Positions 2,702 to 28,856 of a stretch of DNA of 32,088 nt are shown here, in pieces; positions within the stretch are counted from its first letter, which is position 1; every line of letters begins with the position of its first letter. The notes under the pieces were generated by a model that searched no databases, was not told the DNA's origin, and was given only the letters and a program-made list of their open reading frames with translations. The stretch comes from a virus, in IMG/VR virus record IMGVR_UViG_3300034179_000029, positions 1 to 32,088 of that record; one strand, 5' to 3'. Both the position numbers and the translations under genes were made by a program.

Positions 2702-3007
2702 ATGGCATCTATAGGATTAGTTGCAACAAGTATTTGTGCTGGACAATGTACTGGACATTCACCAATACCGGTGCTTCCAGTTACAGGTATTATTATAAAT
2801 GGATCTGTTGATCATACTGTGGAGGGTTCTTTTGTAGCTACAGTAGGGCTTTCTTTGGTAGCTTGTAGTTGCGGTCATGTGGCTCCTATAATATCAACTT
2901 TGAATGTTACAAATTTTACGAATGGTCTTCCAAAATCATCTGTTGGGTCTGTATTTTCTGCAATACCAACAGGAACTGTTATTACTGGAAGTATAACAGC
3001 AATGTAA
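2702..3007 (+). CDS. PAAR-like spike-tip protein
   Basis: This 101-residue protein has the composition and pattern of PAAR-repeat tip proteins: a Cys/His stretch CAGQCTGHSPIP near the start, then II-NGS, V-G-FVAT-G, CSCGHVAPI, and a second NVTNFTNGLPKSSVGS unit ending in VITGSITAM. Members of this family cap the membrane-piercing spike of contractile tails and bind a metal through His/Cys. The local His and Cys residues (CTGH, CSCGH) fit this. The ATG is preceded by AAGGAGAAATT overlapping the end of the previous gene. The short length fits a single-domain tip. The assignment rests on pattern recognition rather than alignment. Confidence 0.65.
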   Translation: MASIGLVATSICAGQCTGHSPIPVLPVTGIIINGSVDHTVEGSFVATVGLSLVACSCGHVAPIISTLNVTNFTNGLPKSSVGSVFSAIPTGTVITGSITAM

Positions 3008-3078
3008 TTTTATATTTAACAAATCGTCTTTAAATAAATTATTAAATTCTTAGACGGTGAATTTAGAAAGGGAACATT

Positions 3079-3918
3079 ATGATGTTTAAAAAAGATTTTG
3101 TAGTCGTTATAAAATGTGATGGAAAAATATTAAGAGAGATAGATGACATAGTATCATTACCATTTGGTAGTGAGTATTCTATTCTTATAAAAAATCTTAA
3201 TTCTAGAAAGGCCCAAGTTTGTATCTCTATAGATGGTAAAGATATTCTAGATAATAAAAAACTAATAATACATGGGAATAAAGAACTAGAATTAGAAGGA
3301 TATCTAAAAGGGTTTAATGCTAGGAATAAATTTAAATTTATACAAAAGACAAAAGAGATATCTGATTATAGAGGCGATAGAATAGATGATGGTATAATAA
3401 GAGTTGAATATCAATTTGAGAAAAAAATAGTAACTCAGAGAATCAATACAGAATATAGTAGTAGTTGTACATATACTTATGGGACCCCTCTTATATACAA
3501 ACAGAACAATGATTTTTTTGATTCTGATATGCATATCTATAATTCTACTTCAAATACATGTTTGAATATAAAAAATAATGAAAATGGCTCTATTCAAAAT
3601 TCTTCAAATTCGTTATCATTTTCTAACAGATCTATGAGAAATTTTTGTGATACTTCAAGAGATGTTTCATTACCTTTAGATGATGAGGGTATAACTGTTC
3701 ATGGAAGTACATGTAATCAGAAATTTAGAGAAGCGTATATAGGAGAATTAGAAGAAACATCTTCAGTTATAACTCTAAAGTTAAGGGGATATAATAGAAA
3801 AAATATCCCTATAGGTAAACCAATAACAGTAAAGACAAAAATAAGATGTGAAACTTGTGGTAAATATTCAAGGTCCAACTCTAAGTTTTGTGATAGATGT
3901 GGAACATGTTTAATATGA
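3079..3918 (+). CDS. Virion-like protein with a C-terminal zinc ribbon
   Basis: The 279-residue protein begins with a region that resembles a domain seen in phage virion proteins: GSEYSILIKNLNSRKAQVCI followed by IDGKDI and, after a polar turn, FKFIQKT. The middle (about 140-215) is low-complexity, rich in Asn and Ser. The C-terminus carries a clear zinc ribbon: C257-x2-C260 and C271-x2-C274, with an extra C277. Start is ATG 3079 after AAAGGG; the following Met codon is an alternative. It lies in the spike-tip unit with no promoter motif of its own, so it is probably co-transcribed with PAAR and co-assembled. Function is unknown. Confidence 0.55.
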   Translation: MMFKKDFVVVIKCDGKILREIDDIVSLPFGSEYSILIKNLNSRKAQVCISIDGKDILDNKKLIIHGNKELELEGYLKGFNARNKFKFIQKTKEISDYRGDRIDDGIIRVEYQFEKKIVTQRINTEYSSSCTYTYGTPLIYKQNNDFFDSDMHIYNSTSNTCLNIKNNENGSIQNSSNSLSFSNRSMRNFCDTSRDVSLPLDDEGITVHGSTCNQKFREAYIGELEETSSVITLKLRGYNRKNIPIGKPITVKTKIRCETCGKYSRSNSKFCDRCGTCLI

Positions 3919-22300: not shown

Positions 22301-25300
22301 CTAATTTAATCTTCCACCTAAGATTCTTTCTGTTTCTTCATCTAATTTCTGCTGTACACCATTAGTACTTATCGCAGTATTTAACGAATTAGAATTTGTG
22401 ACTTGGTTAGTTACAACATTATTGTTAATTGGATGTCTAGCAGAAAGGGCTTCCTGTAATTTTTTATTCCCTGCTAATAATCGGTCAGCTCCAGCTCTCT
22501 GTCTTGCGTGTTCTAACATTGCTTCATGTTCGGCTATAGCTTTTGGAGATGTCATTATTATATCATTTATCATTCTAGCAAATGCTGGAGCTTTATTTAA
22601 CGGGATTACCACTTCTGGTCCAGACTCTCCTAAAAAGGCTGGTGTAGGACTAGTTATAAGTCCTCCCTTTGCAAGCATTGGTGCTCCAGATAATTCTTGT
22701 TCTTTATACCATTTCCCAATGAATGGTATAGCACCTATTTTTTCTCCAAACCATGCTCTAAATTTTTGAGATATTCCAAGTATTAATTTAAATGGCCACA
22801 TAATAAAGCTCCAAATAGATGTAGCTATTTTTTTAACACCGCTCCATACGAATTGTAATCCTTTAGCTATATTTTTTCCACCTATAGCTCCAAGAATACC
22901 ACCTGCTATAGACCCTACGGCTGCCCCTATAGCAGTACCAACAACTGGAACAACACTACCAACACCTGCTCCGATAGCTGCTCCTTTTGCAACGCCCCAA
23001 GCAGTTCTTCCAGCTAGTCCTTCTCCAGTACCACCTAAAAATCCACCTATTCCAGATGTAACTTTCTGAGACAAGGATACCTTTTGACCTTCAGCAACTC
23101 CATGCCATGATCTAGCTTTAGAAACTCCTTTAAAACTATCCCACATAGCAGCAGCAACTCCAGCAACTCCAATGGCTCCAAATATATATGGTGTAATCAT
23201 TGGTAATAACTGAGGTATCATGGTTTTCATCATCTGTATTTTATTTCCAATGTCAAATCCAGGGAGTCCAAATCCAAACTGTTTTAGTAGTATTTTATAG
23301 ATACCTTTTGTATATTTTACCATTTCTGCTGGCCATTTTGCATAGATATATTTCCCATCTTGATCTACACCTATAGGTGCAGTTTTACCACCTGGTTTCA
23401 ACCACTGAATAACACCTTTGATTTTTCCTTTCAATCCTTCTTTGAATTTTAAGTATTTATCCCTGATAGATTGAAATGGTTTCATTATAAACCTACCTAT
23501 AGCCTTAAACGGGGCTGTTATTGCAGACCACATAGTACTAAGAGTCATCTTTATTGTAGATACTCCTATATCTATAGTATGTCTTAAAGCTGTAAATCCT
23601 GTTCTCATTGCAGATAACATAGTATGTCCAATATCTGCCAACATTCCTATACTTTTAGATAATCCTTTAGCAATCCCTCTTGCAACATCTGAACCTATTT
23701 GAAATGGAAGTTTTGCTAATGTTACACCTATATCTGTAATACCATGAATCAATTTTCCAAATATTCCCATAGTACCACTTATTATTTTAGATTTTTTTGT
23801 TCTGGTGCCAGGATGTCCACCTAATATTCCTATTATAGAATCTAGCCTATTAATAACCTGATCTTCAAAACCAGATACTCTTCCATATCCTAGATTAGAG
23901 AGTGCTTCAGAAAACATTCCAGATATTCTAGCTGTTGCTCTTGGGTCACTAAGAGGTAATACTGCTTCTGGTCCAGCTTCACCAACAACTATTCCTTGTG
24001 CTGCAAATATTAACCCTCCTTTTCTCATAGCTTTAGATTTTCCAGAACCTCCAACAAATGCAGCAAATTCTGTTATACTATTTTGTATATCACTAGAAAG
24101 AATTCTTATCTTTTTTCCAAGTTCTGCTATATCATCTACAAATTTACTAAGAGAATATTTTTTAATTCCTTTTCCCAACCATACTATATCGTGAAATGTA
24201 TTAGTAATTGCAGTACCAAGAGGATCAAAAGCTGCTTTAACTATTCTAAACATATATTGGAAAATACCACTAACAACACCTGGTATACCTGGTCTTTTTA
24301 TTCTAGCCTCTGTAAAATCTTTTGCTGCTGCATCCATAGCATCAAATGCATTATAAAATGAGTTGAATGATACAGAAGACCATTCTAACAATCTATCACT
24401 AATAGTTGCAAATATCTTATTCCAAGAATCTGGCAATATTCTTTCTACGATATTCTTTCTTAAATCTGAAATTATTGTTGGTATGTCTATTGCTGAAAAC
24501 TGACTTATATTTCTATGGGCATCTTCCAATGCTTTTGTAGAAGACAATAATCTATTAACTGCATTGTACAAATCTTTCCCAAGAGGTATTAGCCCTTTTA
24601 TAGCTTCCCATGTAGATGCTGGTATTGCAGATATAACACCAAGTATTTTTGTAAATGGAGATTCTCCTCTATTCCATGCAACCTCAAATGGTTTTATAAT
24701 CTTCTCACCATAATTAGATAATATATAGAATATTCTATCCATATGACGAGACATATCAGCAACGCTCTGAAAAGACACAGTTAGAATTCCTTTTATAGAT
24801 TCAAATATTTTTCCACCAGCCTCTTTAAATATTGTAGGTATAAGTGTTTGATATGCCTTTATGATTATCGATTGTATACCACTTCGTTCGCCAATTTCTC
24901 TATTAAATATTTCTTTTATGTTTCCAGCTATATTAGTTAATGACTTTTCAACTATAATTGGGAGTTCTCTTATAACATTAAATATTCCGCCAAATATAGA
25001 TTTTTTCCCTCTTTTTTCTAGCATTACTCCTCCACCGCCAGCAAGACCTGTAACTCTTGATCCCATTCCAACCCCAAATGCTGTTTGTATTTCATGCATA
25101 GCTTCTACTGCTGGTGTAAGAAAAGAAAATGTAGCTTTAAACCAATTCAATAATTCATCTAGTTTTGAAGTCATTGGTTTAAATAGTCCAGTTATCCAAT
25201 CTTTCAATCTTTTAAAGATTCCTCCACTAAACAAACTAGCAATTCCACCAAACAGACCTGAAAATAAACCACCTCTACTTGAACCAACTGTTTCCCCAGC

Positions 25301-27016
25301 ATGTAATTCTGCAGTACCAGTTTTTGTAATAACGTGAGGATGTGTAGATGCTTTCTGCAATGATATAGGTTTCGACATAGCAGAACCGCCTCTATTTAAC
25401 ATTATATCTCGCATTTCTATTAAAGTATCTCTAATATCTGTCATTAACAATAATCTTCTCGCAAGACTTGGAGAAGCTCTTAGTTCATCAGATTCCTTTT
25501 TTCTACCTTTAGCAGTAACCCAATCTCTATAGCCAGGAATCATCCCTAGTAATCCCATACCCTTTTCTTTTCCTAATCCTAAAAGATTAGAAAATAGACC
25601 CTTAGCTTTACCAGTTATAACATCTTTCATAAAAGTTAATGGGCCAGTCTCACCACTTAGTGTGTCACCAATACTTTTACCTATCCATTCAGATAAAGAT
25701 CTTGGACCAGGTTTCCATAAGGTTCCAGGTATTTCAAAACCTATTTGTAATAATCGAGCTTGTTGTAATGCTAATTTATTGCTCTCTTCAGACGCAAATC
25801 TTGTATGTACATATAACATCCCTAAAGTCTGTAACATTGCTCCAAACATACCATATCTTTTGGCATCTGGAAGTTCTGCCCTATATCCTGCTCCAAACAT
25901 TGGTAGAGCATATGCTATAGTAGATCCTATTTTAAAAACTCCTGTGAACATCCTTTTAAACAAACCTGTTCTACCACTATCTTCTAATGCAGAAGTAAGA
26001 GATTTTGTCATTATCTTTGATTGAATCTTCTCATCTGAAAGTACTCCAAGATTCTCTTTAAACTCTTCACTAGGAGAAACTACAAAATCTTCATCTTCTA
26101 CAGGCATCATTCTAAAGATACCCTTTTCTCGTGTCTCTCTTGGAAAACCAGAAACGAAATCAGCTAAATTATTAACGCCTATCTGCAAACCACCAAACCC
26201 TTTTCTAGCAAGACCTCCAGCACCAGTTGCCATTCTAGACATCATACCTGGACCGCCAGCACCTCCACCACCTCCATTTCCACCAAACAGATTTGCTGTT
26301 GCTGATTCAAGAAACATTCCAGGAACTAATCCACCGCCAGCTGCTGCCAATCCTGTTCCCAATGCTTTTTTATACTGTGACCATAGATCTGTTCTGACAT
26401 TACCTAACACTTCAGTTGCTGCAGCTTCTGGTATATCTAAGTATGCTTTTCCCAATCCAACACCAGCTCTTATTGGAGCTGTTGCTACTCTAGCACCTGT
26501 TCTTCCAACACCTCTAATAGCTTTATACCCTAAATATCCTGCTCCAGCTGCCCCGCCAATAGCTGCCCATTTTCCAAATTTTTTCATATGGTCGCCAAGA
26601 TATTTCAGTTGTTCCATATTTTTATTTGTAACGTCTACAATATCATCCATGGATGAACTTAGCTTCTTATTAGATGCTGATAATTCTTTAGCAGATGCTT
26701 GGAATTTTTTACTTGATGAGTCTAATTTATATGTAGCATCAGATAGCCCTTTAACAGTCTTCTCAAGTTTATCTGATTTTAACTCTACTTCTTTTTGTAT
26801 AGTTCCACTTTTAAGTTTATTTGTAGCTATGTGAAGTTCTTTTGCATGATCTCTCATTGCTTTAATATTCATCATACCACTCTTATTCATAAGATTTGTC
26901 TGGGTAGATATTTGAGACTTTAATTTTGTATTTGCATTAGTAATAGTATCATTTAGCAATCCAAGATTCTTGGTAAAGTCGTCTCTTTGCTGTGAAAAAT
27001 CATTTTTTGGTGGCAA
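22301..27016 (-). CDS. Tail tape measure protein
   Basis: 1,571 residues, the longest gene here. The start is set at TTG 27016 because GAGGAG precedes it at 8-bp spacing, as at TTG 6087; the GTG at 27031 has no site and an ATG at 27034 runs straight into a stop. The first ~150 residues are coiled coil. A Gly-rich hinge (GGNGGGGGAGGPGMM) is near residue 250. Two phage-typical GEAGPEAVLPL and GESGPEVVIPL motifs lie near residues 1005 and 1455, and hydrophobic Gly/Ala helices (IGAAVGSIAGGILGAIGG) near 1360 could insert in the host membrane. By the common ~0.15 nm per residue rule the tail would be about 230 nm long. It sets tail length and probably helps DNA entry. Confidence 0.9.
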   Translation of the reverse strand: MPPKNDFSQQRDDFTKNLGLLNDTITNANTKLKSQISTQTNLMNKSGMMNIKAMRDHAKELHIATNKLKSGTIQKEVELKSDKLEKTVKGLSDATYKLDSSSKKFQASAKELSASNKKLSSSMDDIVDVTNKNMEQLKYLGDHMKKFGKWAAIGGAAGAGYLGYKAIRGVGRTGARVATAPIRAGVGLGKAYLDIPEAAATEVLGNVRTDLWSQYKKALGTGLAAAGGGLVPGMFLESATANLFGGNGGGGGAGGPGMMSRMATGAGGLARKGFGGLQIGVNNLADFVSGFPRETREKGIFRMMPVEDEDFVVSPSEEFKENLGVLSDEKIQSKIMTKSLTSALEDSGRTGLFKRMFTGVFKIGSTIAYALPMFGAGYRAELPDAKRYGMFGAMLQTLGMLYVHTRFASEESNKLALQQARLLQIGFEIPGTLWKPGPRSLSEWIGKSIGDTLSGETGPLTFMKDVITGKAKGLFSNLLGLGKEKGMGLLGMIPGYRDWVTAKGRKKESDELRASPSLARRLLLMTDIRDTLIEMRDIMLNRGGSAMSKPISLQKASTHPHVITKTGTAELHAGETVGSSRGGLFSGLFGGIASLFSGGIFKRLKDWITGLFKPMTSKLDELLNWFKATFSFLTPAVEAMHEIQTAFGVGMGSRVTGLAGGGGVMLEKRGKKSIFGGIFNVIRELPIIVEKSLTNIAGNIKEIFNREIGERSGIQSIIIKAYQTLIPTIFKEAGGKIFESIKGILTVSFQSVADMSRHMDRIFYILSNYGEKIIKPFEVAWNRGESPFTKILGVISAIPASTWEAIKGLIPLGKDLYNAVNRLLSSTKALEDAHRNISQFSAIDIPTIISDLRKNIVERILPDSWNKIFATISDRLLEWSSVSFNSFYNAFDAMDAAAKDFTEARIKRPGIPGVVSGIFQYMFRIVKAAFDPLGTAITNTFHDIVWLGKGIKKYSLSKFVDDIAELGKKIRILSSDIQNSITEFAAFVGGSGKSKAMRKGGLIFAAQGIVVGEAGPEAVLPLSDPRATARISGMFSEALSNLGYGRVSGFEDQVINRLDSIIGILGGHPGTRTKKSKIISGTMGIFGKLIHGITDIGVTLAKLPFQIGSDVARGIAKGLSKSIGMLADIGHTMLSAMRTGFTALRHTIDIGVSTIKMTLSTMWSAITAPFKAIGRFIMKPFQSIRDKYLKFKEGLKGKIKGVIQWLKPGGKTAPIGVDQDGKYIYAKWPAEMVKYTKGIYKILLKQFGFGLPGFDIGNKIQMMKTMIPQLLPMITPYIFGAIGVAGVAAAMWDSFKGVSKARSWHGVAEGQKVSLSQKVTSGIGGFLGGTGEGLAGRTAWGVAKGAAIGAGVGSVVPVVGTAIGAAVGSIAGGILGAIGGKNIAKGLQFVWSGVKKIATSIWSFIMWPFKLILGISQKFRAWFGEKIGAIPFIGKWYKEQELSGAPMLAKGGLITSPTPAFLGESGPEVVIPLNKAPAFARMINDIIMTSPKAIAEHEAMLEHARQRAGADRLLAGNKKLQEALSARHPINNNVVTNQVTNSNSLNTAISTNGVQQKLDEETERILGGRLN

Positions 27017-27042
27017 TTTATTTCTCCTCACATAATTTCGTT

Positions 27043-27057
27043 TTTAAAGTTTGTCCT
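27043..27057 (-). promoter_or_regulatory. Class-A promoter motif for the tape measure unit, copy 7
   Basis: Minus strand AGGACAAACTTTAAA, perfect consensus, 26 bases before the TTG start, immediately downstream of the terminator for the 27123-28798 unit. Confidence 0.7.
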
Positions 27058-27122: not shown

Positions 27123-27449
27123 TTATTTTATTTCTTTTCCAGATTTTCTCTGTTTTTCTACCCATGTTGATAATTTCTCTTGCATTTTATCTGCCCAAGA
27201 AGATAATGGTTTATTTTTATCTTTATTCCAAACCTTTAAATTTACCAAAGCTTTAGAGATGTCTTCCCATCCTTTTTTCTTTATCAAGCCCTGAAAATGA
27301 CTCTCTGGCATATCTTCAACATTTTTGCCTTCTGGAACTTCTAGTTTTCCAGGTTCTTCTACAGGTATTTTTACCTTTTGTTCTTCTAAAGTTGTCTCTG
27401 TATCTACCGATTCTAATAAATTTGTTAAAAATCCTTTACATGTTCTCAT
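27123..27449 (-). CDS. Small charged protein (108 aa) behind the ligase
   Basis: Starts 20 bases after the ligase stop with AAGGAG before the ATG. The N-terminus (MRTCKGFLTNLLESVD) is followed by a Glu/Pro-rich linker (VPEGKNVEDMPESHF) and a basic helical C-terminus ending KQRKSGKEIK, with three Trp residues in the second half (GWEDISKALVNLKVW, SSWADKM). No family is recognised. Being in one transcript with the ligase and followed by a terminator, it may be a ligase partner or an unrelated virion protein. Confidence 0.5.
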   Translation of the reverse strand: MRTCKGFLTNLLESVDTETTLEEQKVKIPVEEPGKLEVPEGKNVEDMPESHFQGLIKKKGWEDISKALVNLKVWNKDKNKPLSSWADKMQEKLSTWVEKQRKSGKEIK

Positions 27450-27469: not shown

Positions 27470-28798
27470 TTATCTTAAATCTATAGGTATTTGTCTAAAC
27501 CCAATATCAAATACACTTACCTTTTTATCATTCCTAAGTCCTATTAGACTGGATTGCATTAATGAATATCCAAATTTATCTCCAATATACTTATACCCCC
27601 TACCAGGAATATATTTATATGTTGGCATATTGGTATTTCTTATTCTTAACCATCTTGTTTCAACAACAGTTGTAGGTTTAACCCATATCTCATTGTTTTT
27701 CTCTTCAATCTTATTTTTCTGTGCCCAATTGAATAAATCTTCTCTAAATTTTGTTGTAAATCCAGTACCAATATTTGTTGCTAATATAAACTCCCCTGGT
27801 TCATTCATAAATGCAACCTTCAAATATGATATCTGTCCTCTGCTCCAACTCTTCATATTTGTATTACCAACAGCAACAATTGCTAAGTCAAAGCTAAAGG
27901 ATTTTTTTATTTTAAAATTCTTTCCATTTCTAGCAACCAATCCTTCTACACCAAATGTAGTTAAGAATCTATCCCAAGCTCTATTTAAATCTCCTTTTAT
28001 ATACCTTATTGGATGTATGCGTTTAGATCCTTTAAATAAATTTCTTATAATATTAACTCTTGACTCCCAATTCCCTGTATATCTTTTTCCATTAATTGAA
28101 AATATATCAAATGGATGATGATGATACATATTATCATTCTCTGAATTCTTATAGGCAGTCTTTAATATACTCTGTATCTGGTTGAATGGTAATATTACAC
28201 CATTTCTAATTGCTGTCCCTTCACCCATAATAACAATAGAAGAAAAATTAGATCTATCTAAAATATTTTTGTATTCATCCAACACTAATAGATCTGTTCT
28301 CATCATATCACTTCTAGTAATAAATGATATATCTGAATCCCTCTCATACATAAGACAATTTAATTCACCATCTATTTTTTCTAGAAAATAATATCTCTTT
28401 ATCCAATCTATAGGAAAATCTTCTTTTGAGATACTAGTTAGATTCATTTCTTTTTTCCATATAGCTATTGGATTTTTAGAACTATCTATCTTTACTGGTT
28501 TCCTTTTCTGTCTTTTCCATGGTAGTAAAGAATGATTTAAAGTAAGCTCTTCTCCTTTATATATTAACCTGTTTGTTATCAAATAATATTTCCATAGAAC
28601 AGTTTTAAAAAACAAATTTGGTGTTTGAGAATTACTTATTAACTTTCCTAATTTTGTTTCAACATAATCTTTTGTTGGGTCTCCAGTCTTCTTTATTTTT
28701 AAAAATCCTGGACCAAGATTTGTAGATGGGGGTATATCCATAGATGCAAATACACCGTTTGGTCTAATATCTATATATTGTAGTTGTATACCTGGCAT
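27470..28798 (-). CDS. SET-like domain fused to an ATP-dependent DNA ligase
   Basis: 442 residues. Residues about 12-95 look like a SET domain: GVFASMDIPP (15-24), LGKLISNSQTPN (50-61) in place of the usual NHS-xx-PN, then LIYKGEELTLNH (78-89) where SET proteins have GEELT-x-DY. Residues ~135-360 carry the DNA ligase motifs: EKIDGEL with nucleotidyl Lys K141, GEGTAI (motif III, E193), FDIFSINGKRY, EGLVARNG (motif IV, E285), FKIKKSFSFDLAIVAVG (motif V), then an OB-fold-like LKVAF ... IGTGFTTK. The ligase seals nicks using ATP. The SET-like part may be catalytically changed because the Asn-His and Tyr are altered. The class-A motif at 28834 lies 26 bases upstream, and the ATG has GAGGA. Start and ligase call are firm; the SET call is moderate. 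Confidence 0.8.
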   Translation of the reverse strand: MPGIQLQYIDIRPNGVFASMDIPPSTNLGPGFLKIKKTGDPTKDYVETKLGKLISNSQTPNLFFKTVLWKYYLITNRLIYKGEELTLNHSLLPWKRQKRKPVKIDSSKNPIAIWKKEMNLTSISKEDFPIDWIKRYYFLEKIDGELNCLMYERDSDISFITRSDMMRTDLLVLDEYKNILDRSNFSSIVIMGEGTAIRNGVILPFNQIQSILKTAYKNSENDNMYHHHPFDIFSINGKRYTGNWESRVNIIRNLFKGSKRIHPIRYIKGDLNRAWDRFLTTFGVEGLVARNGKNFKIKKSFSFDLAIVAVGNTNMKSWSRGQISYLKVAFMNEPGEFILATNIGTGFTTKFREDLFNWAQKNKIEEKNNEIWVKPTTVVETRWLRIRNTNMPTYKYIPGRGYKYIGDKFGYSLMQSSLIGLRNDKKVSVFDIGFRQIPIDLR

Positions 28799-28819
28799 TA
28801 ATAAAATCCTCGATTAACT

Positions 28820-28834
28820 TTTATAGTTTGTCCT
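28820..28834 (-). promoter_or_regulatory. Class-A promoter motif for the ligase unit, copy 8
   Basis: Minus strand AGGACAAACTATAAA, perfect consensus, 36 bases from its first base to the ligase ATG. It lies right after the terminator of the upstream minus-strand gene. Confidence 0.7.
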
Positions 28835-28856
28835 AATATTTTATAAAAAAATAAAA

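Follow-up and report, generated by a model that had tools for sequence, protein, structure and literature searches.

SET domains have been studied as lysine methyltransferases. The minimal viral form of the fold, vSET of chlorella virus PBCV-1 (105 aa; 3kma), is an active histone methyltransferase, and the chloroviruses have a DNA ligase too, encoded as a protein of its own. In phages, the SET domain of phrog_28741/Kolga gp27 (QLF88473.1) is a stand-alone protein of ~100 aa with intact NHS and Tyr residues. The T4, archaeal and LigD ligases combine nucleotidyltransferase and OB domains that carry motifs I-VI; their N-terminal part is a helical DNA-binding domain, another domain or nothing, and no SET domain was found among the top matches.

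Here we analysed a whole IMG/VR-type record of an uncultivated phage, itself a fragment, of 32,088 bases (hereafter the window), in which one gene joins a SET-like part to an ATP-dependent DNA ligase. The SET part is a minimal fold like vSET and is homologous to Kolga gp27, from which it differs in being fused and in having lost active-site residues, while the ligase part has the domains and motifs of the T4, archaeal and LigD enzymes. Polyvalent proteins, the injected multidomain proteins of phages, are defined by two or more unlike domains in one polypeptide and by carriage in the virion. The window protein has two domains, and the main text of PMC5512222 does not name SET or ligase among those of polyvalent proteins. 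Both vSET/SET and DNA ligase are mentioned in passages of PMC7019647. The initial annotation had called a fusion of SET to a ligase something not known, and we likewise found no SET-ligase protein described in the open-licence literature; an earlier report elsewhere is possible.

A comparable arrangement is found in viral DHH-SET proteins (L071-L073, L078, L083, L114, L117), where a homologous SET domain is also joined to a nucleic-acid-type enzyme (Pfam DHH 1.1e-4, below the cut-off; SET 5e-10). Unlike in the window, the partner is a DHH phosphoesterase, which precedes the SET domain, and the SET domain has kept its active site. These proteins are ~660-730 aa long, with a further conserved tail.

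The reading that we favour, and to which we give about an even chance, is that the window gene encodes a late-expressed protein in which a short basic linker connects a catalytically dead SET-fold domain to an ATP-dependent DNA ligase, with the SET fold serving as a binding or targeting module.

The SET-ligase gene and its two halves

The gene occupies 27470..28798 on the minus strand, a strand that the initial annotation had left unstated, and forms a single frame of 442 aa plus stop (ATG at 28798, stop at 27472-27470). That one frame joins both parts was thus borne out, and the quoted motifs all lie at the relative positions given for them: GVFASMDIPP at residues 15-24, LGKLISNSQTPN at 50-61, GEELT at 82-86, and K141. 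Profile and fold evidence place the SET-fold domain at residues 1-94 (28517..28798, minus strand). It is followed by a basic linker, KRQKRKPVKIDSSKNPIAIWKKE, at residues 95-117 (28448..28516, minus strand), with 9 K/R and 2 D/E in 23 residues, and then by the ligase core at residues 118-442 (27473..28447, minus strand).

The N-terminal part belongs firmly to the SET family by homology. Residues 1-104 scored 61 bits against a phage SET profile from which the window's own clade had been excluded, whereas 2000 shuffles of the same residues reached at most 6.7 bits. Against Pfam SET (PF00856) the N-terminus alone scored 19.7 bits, below the cut-off of 22.4; the sister L164, 62% identical to the window SET, exceeds this cut-off (35.8 bits). 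A tblastn search of phages matched Pelagibacter phage Kolga gp27 (36% identity over residues 4-91, E=2e-5), which, like its cyanophage P-RSM6 homologue, clears Pfam SET with 40-45 bits, and phrog_28741 was matched with E=0.0034. A sequence search of the PDB with the N-terminus returned no match. Its AlphaFold model, built with 19 related sequences, had a pLDDT of 84, and the 50 PDB matches listed by Foldseek were all SET/PR domains or complexes holding one (TM 0.5-0.66), the best of these 50 being vSET 3kma (E=2.5e-4, prob 1.00). What had been an inference, that the first part is truly SET, now holds by both profiles and predicted fold. Fold and profile rule out a non-SET N-terminus; nor is it a known ligase domain, as other phage ligases begin with DNA-binding or WGR-like parts that bear no likeness to it. 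Neither of the refuting conditions set by the initial annotation was therefore fulfilled by the data.

The proposal of a full ligase motif set around a nucleotidyl lysine found support in profiles, motif alignment and fold. TIGR02779, the LigD-type ligase domain, matched with E=2.9e-11, DNA_ligase_A_C (PF04679) matched over residues 320-425 slightly below its cut-off (E=2.1e-5), and a PDB sequence search returned archaeal ligases. The codon of K141, the lysine of motif I (EKIDGELN), lies at 28376..28378 (minus strand), and motifs Ia, III, IIIa, IV, V and VI align with those of phage ligases (R162, E193, F230-D231, E285, K296/K298 and RNDK at 422-425). Motif VI, GLRNDK (residues 420-425; 27524..27541, minus strand), sits in the C-terminal OB domain, which rules out an RNA ligase. 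A model of residues 131-427 matched archaeal, T4, LigD and human ligase 1 structures (best E=1.3e-13); the full-length model was unreliable over residues 1-130 and too weak to describe a domain interface. In motif I, the Lys and DG of the consensus KxDGxR are present and the Arg is absent (KIDGELN), as it is in the Campylobacter phage PC5 ligase (KLDGQFC), so that ligase activity could be altered. The N-terminus of related phage ligases is a different domain, whose aligned sequence is unrelated to that of the window. An alignment that mixed SET with ligase sequences placed ligase rows wrongly on SET and was set aside.

SET active site and the wider phage family

SET domains had been described as rare in phages, a statement that did not survive the search: the collected loci included 144 open frames with a SET hit, nearly all viral, and such frames are common in marine viral contigs. 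Relatives also occur in Saccharibacteria and Woesearchaeota genome contigs (L146, L147). Among the sampled neighbours no fixed gene neighbourhood was found; they include primase-helicase, DNA polymerase, exonuclease, DNA methyltransferase, terminase and gp25-like baseplate genes. In L003, L004 (cyanophage P-RSM6) and L040, a stand-alone SET gene adjoins a gp25-like baseplate wedge gene, that of L003 being judged by sequence alone. Four further loci (L092, L094, L098, L108) encode proteins of 1067-1482 aa with GNAT, DUF5661 and one or two SET domains, plus an M23 peptidase in L092. Their KES/xTEL repeats resemble T4 prohead-protease sites, and these proteins might by analogy be packaged and cleaved.

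The window SET carries six active-site losses with respect to the family: G13P, H32F, N55S, H56N, C62L and Y89H. In 106 non-redundant relatives, G13 is found in 93, H32 in 96, N55 in 104, H56 in all, C62 in 98 and Y89 in 104, and the exceptions at positions 55 and 89 are L088 and L165, both of the window's clade. Since the search patterns took in positions 15-22 and 79-86 and thus left out 55, 56 and 89, conservation at these three sites is not a search artefact. The changes pointed out by the initial annotation (NHS to SNS at 55-57, and the Tyr after GEELT to His at 89) are real. SET methyltransferases are recognised by their cofactor motifs, GxG and NH, and by a catalytic Tyr, none of which is intact in the window. 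Structural residues are retained (G15, F17, A18, G29, T48, L50, G51, N61, G82, E83, E84).

The window, L088, L164 and L165 SET domains form one clade (support 100/98). Within it the loss of the active site is graded, since L164 keeps N55, H56 and Y89; L165 has Q, H and F at these positions, L088 has G, H and H, and the window S, N and H. Comparison of the window and L088 domains gave dN=0.25 and dS=1.54, and the resulting dN/dS of about 0.16, a rough ratio as dS is near saturation, indicates that the SET domain is maintained under purifying selection. The earlier suggestion that it may bind rather than methylate is strengthened, as nearly invariant positions are lost in the window and partly in its sisters; the binding role itself is an inference.

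Sister loci, expression signals and rival readings

Within what could be searched, the fusion was seen in one contig only, that of the window. No relative was found in viral contigs searched with the whole protein, with the ligase part alone or with a ligase alignment headed by the window, nor did phage records match the whole protein, so the same two-domain order did not turn up elsewhere in these collections. A narrow three-sequence ligase profile detected no ligase in the fetched flanks of any SET locus.

Collinearity between the window and the 22 kb contig of L088 extends from the tail sheath up to the right end of the window; protein identities are mostly 65-87%, and 29-48% for some small proteins. 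Its SET protein is unfused (100 aa, 67% identical to the window's) and stops directly after LPWKKIRQI, the point at which the window linker begins. An unrelated 115-aa gene follows, then a homologue of the next window gene (27123..27449, minus strand; 108 aa), and the L088 contig gave no ligase match. This 108-aa protein is homologous to the small protein into which the SET frame of L164 and L165 runs on, with no extra gene between; the L165 link was read from its sequence. In L164 a gene-start motif precedes the internal ATG, so two products are possible from that frame. The slot behind SET thus varies, with a ligase in the window, a 115-aa gene in L088 and a run-on frame in L164 and L165. 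The SET loci of the window and its relatives lie just upstream of the tape-measure gene (22301..27031, minus strand; phrog_167, E=5.5e-13), in the relatives by homology, and the ligase resembles a cargo gene that occupies a variable slot close to it, either gained in the window lineage or lost elsewhere. The small neighbours at 27123-27449 in the window and at 2817-3164, 3164-3472 and 3518-4132 in L088 have in common an N-terminal KGFLxxLLxE-like stretch, which resembles a capsid-targeting propeptide.

Upstream of the SET-ligase gene, a TTAGGACAAAC motif, a probable late promoter element of the phage group, lies at 28826..28836 (minus strand), ~28 nt before the start codon, and a putative ribosome-binding site, GAGG, at 28808..28811 (minus strand), within cgaggattttattaATG. 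Each of the eight window copies of AGGACAAA lies on the coding strand shortly ahead of a gene start, as do those of the L088 contig and L164. In its longer form, TWAGGACAAACTwTAAA, the motif occurs in the window at 1971, 11371, 13293, 14119, 15523 and 29172 (plus strand) and at 27057 and 28834 (minus strand), always on the coding strand and a short distance upstream of gene starts, also in L088 and L164. It is a likely late promoter of this myovirus group. The window has this motif ahead of SET, and none was found between SET and ligase.

The main rival to a dead SET fold acting as targeting module is a passive fusion, in which the ligase landed in the cargo slot behind SET, the stop was lost and SET does nothing for the ligase. 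We regard this as quite possible, if somewhat short of probable. It would explain the variable slot, and M118, 23 residues ahead of K141, occupies a position similar to that of the PML with which the ligase core of relatives starts, so a core of normal size could start separately there. However, the linker has no in-frame GTG or TTG that would offer another start before M118, only a weak purine run rather than a good ribosome site precedes it, and the gene-start motif is absent at M118, though present before the small gene in L164. An assembly or base-call artefact, with separate SET and ligase genes and a misread or misassembled stop, is a still slighter prospect that we consider highly improbable: the fusion does come from a single contig and L088 has its stop at the domain border, but both parts share one frame with continuous composition (GC 29% in each), an independent ligase gene would lack any start ahead of M118, and a chimera would need its join exactly at that border inside a collinear region.

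It is also unlikely, by a wide measure, that the SET domain has remained a methyltransferase, working by a changed chemistry on the ligase or on a host protein. Its predicted fold is intact, the domain is under selection and the L164 sister has its key residues, yet the general catalytic Tyr, the NH pair and the first Gly of GxG, kept in nearly all 106 relatives, are replaced. For the dead, binding SET fold we counted the SET homology and fold, the lost positions, the clade support, the selection on the domain, the ligase evidence, the differing N-termini of related ligases, the unfused SET of the collinear sister, with a different gene in the ligase slot, and the gene-start motif upstream of SET only; against it we counted the single fused sequence, the unreliable full-length model over residues 1-130, motif I without Arg, M118 as a possible separate start and the intact positions 55, 56 and 89 of L164.

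A possible role for the SET fold

If the SET fold is indeed a binding module, the phage would express the protein late, its ligase part would seal DNA nicks, and the SET fold, no longer methylating, would bind a protein or DNA partner or localise the ligase. It may thereby stand in for the N-terminal domain, DNA-binding or WGR, of other phage ligases. The basic linker and the basic SET part (pI 9.4) would suit either DNA or a negatively charged protein as the partner. More speculatively, and in our view less likely than not, phages may have put the SET fold to new use as a non-catalytic adaptor: the clade would have lost methyltransferase activity while the domain stayed selected, and a ligase would then have been added so that nicks are sealed at a particular site, virion DNA or the tail for instance.

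The open-licence literature has hardly touched the wider phage SET family, whose stand-alone, DHH-fused and GNAT/M23-fused members occur in marine and groundwater phages. Within this family, the graded series of L164, L165, L088 and the window provides a ready set of proteins for timing the loss of activity and its replacement. Should our reading be true, the window would encode a natural SET pseudoenzyme with a new job, its clade having retained the fold without the active site and joined it to a DNA enzyme.
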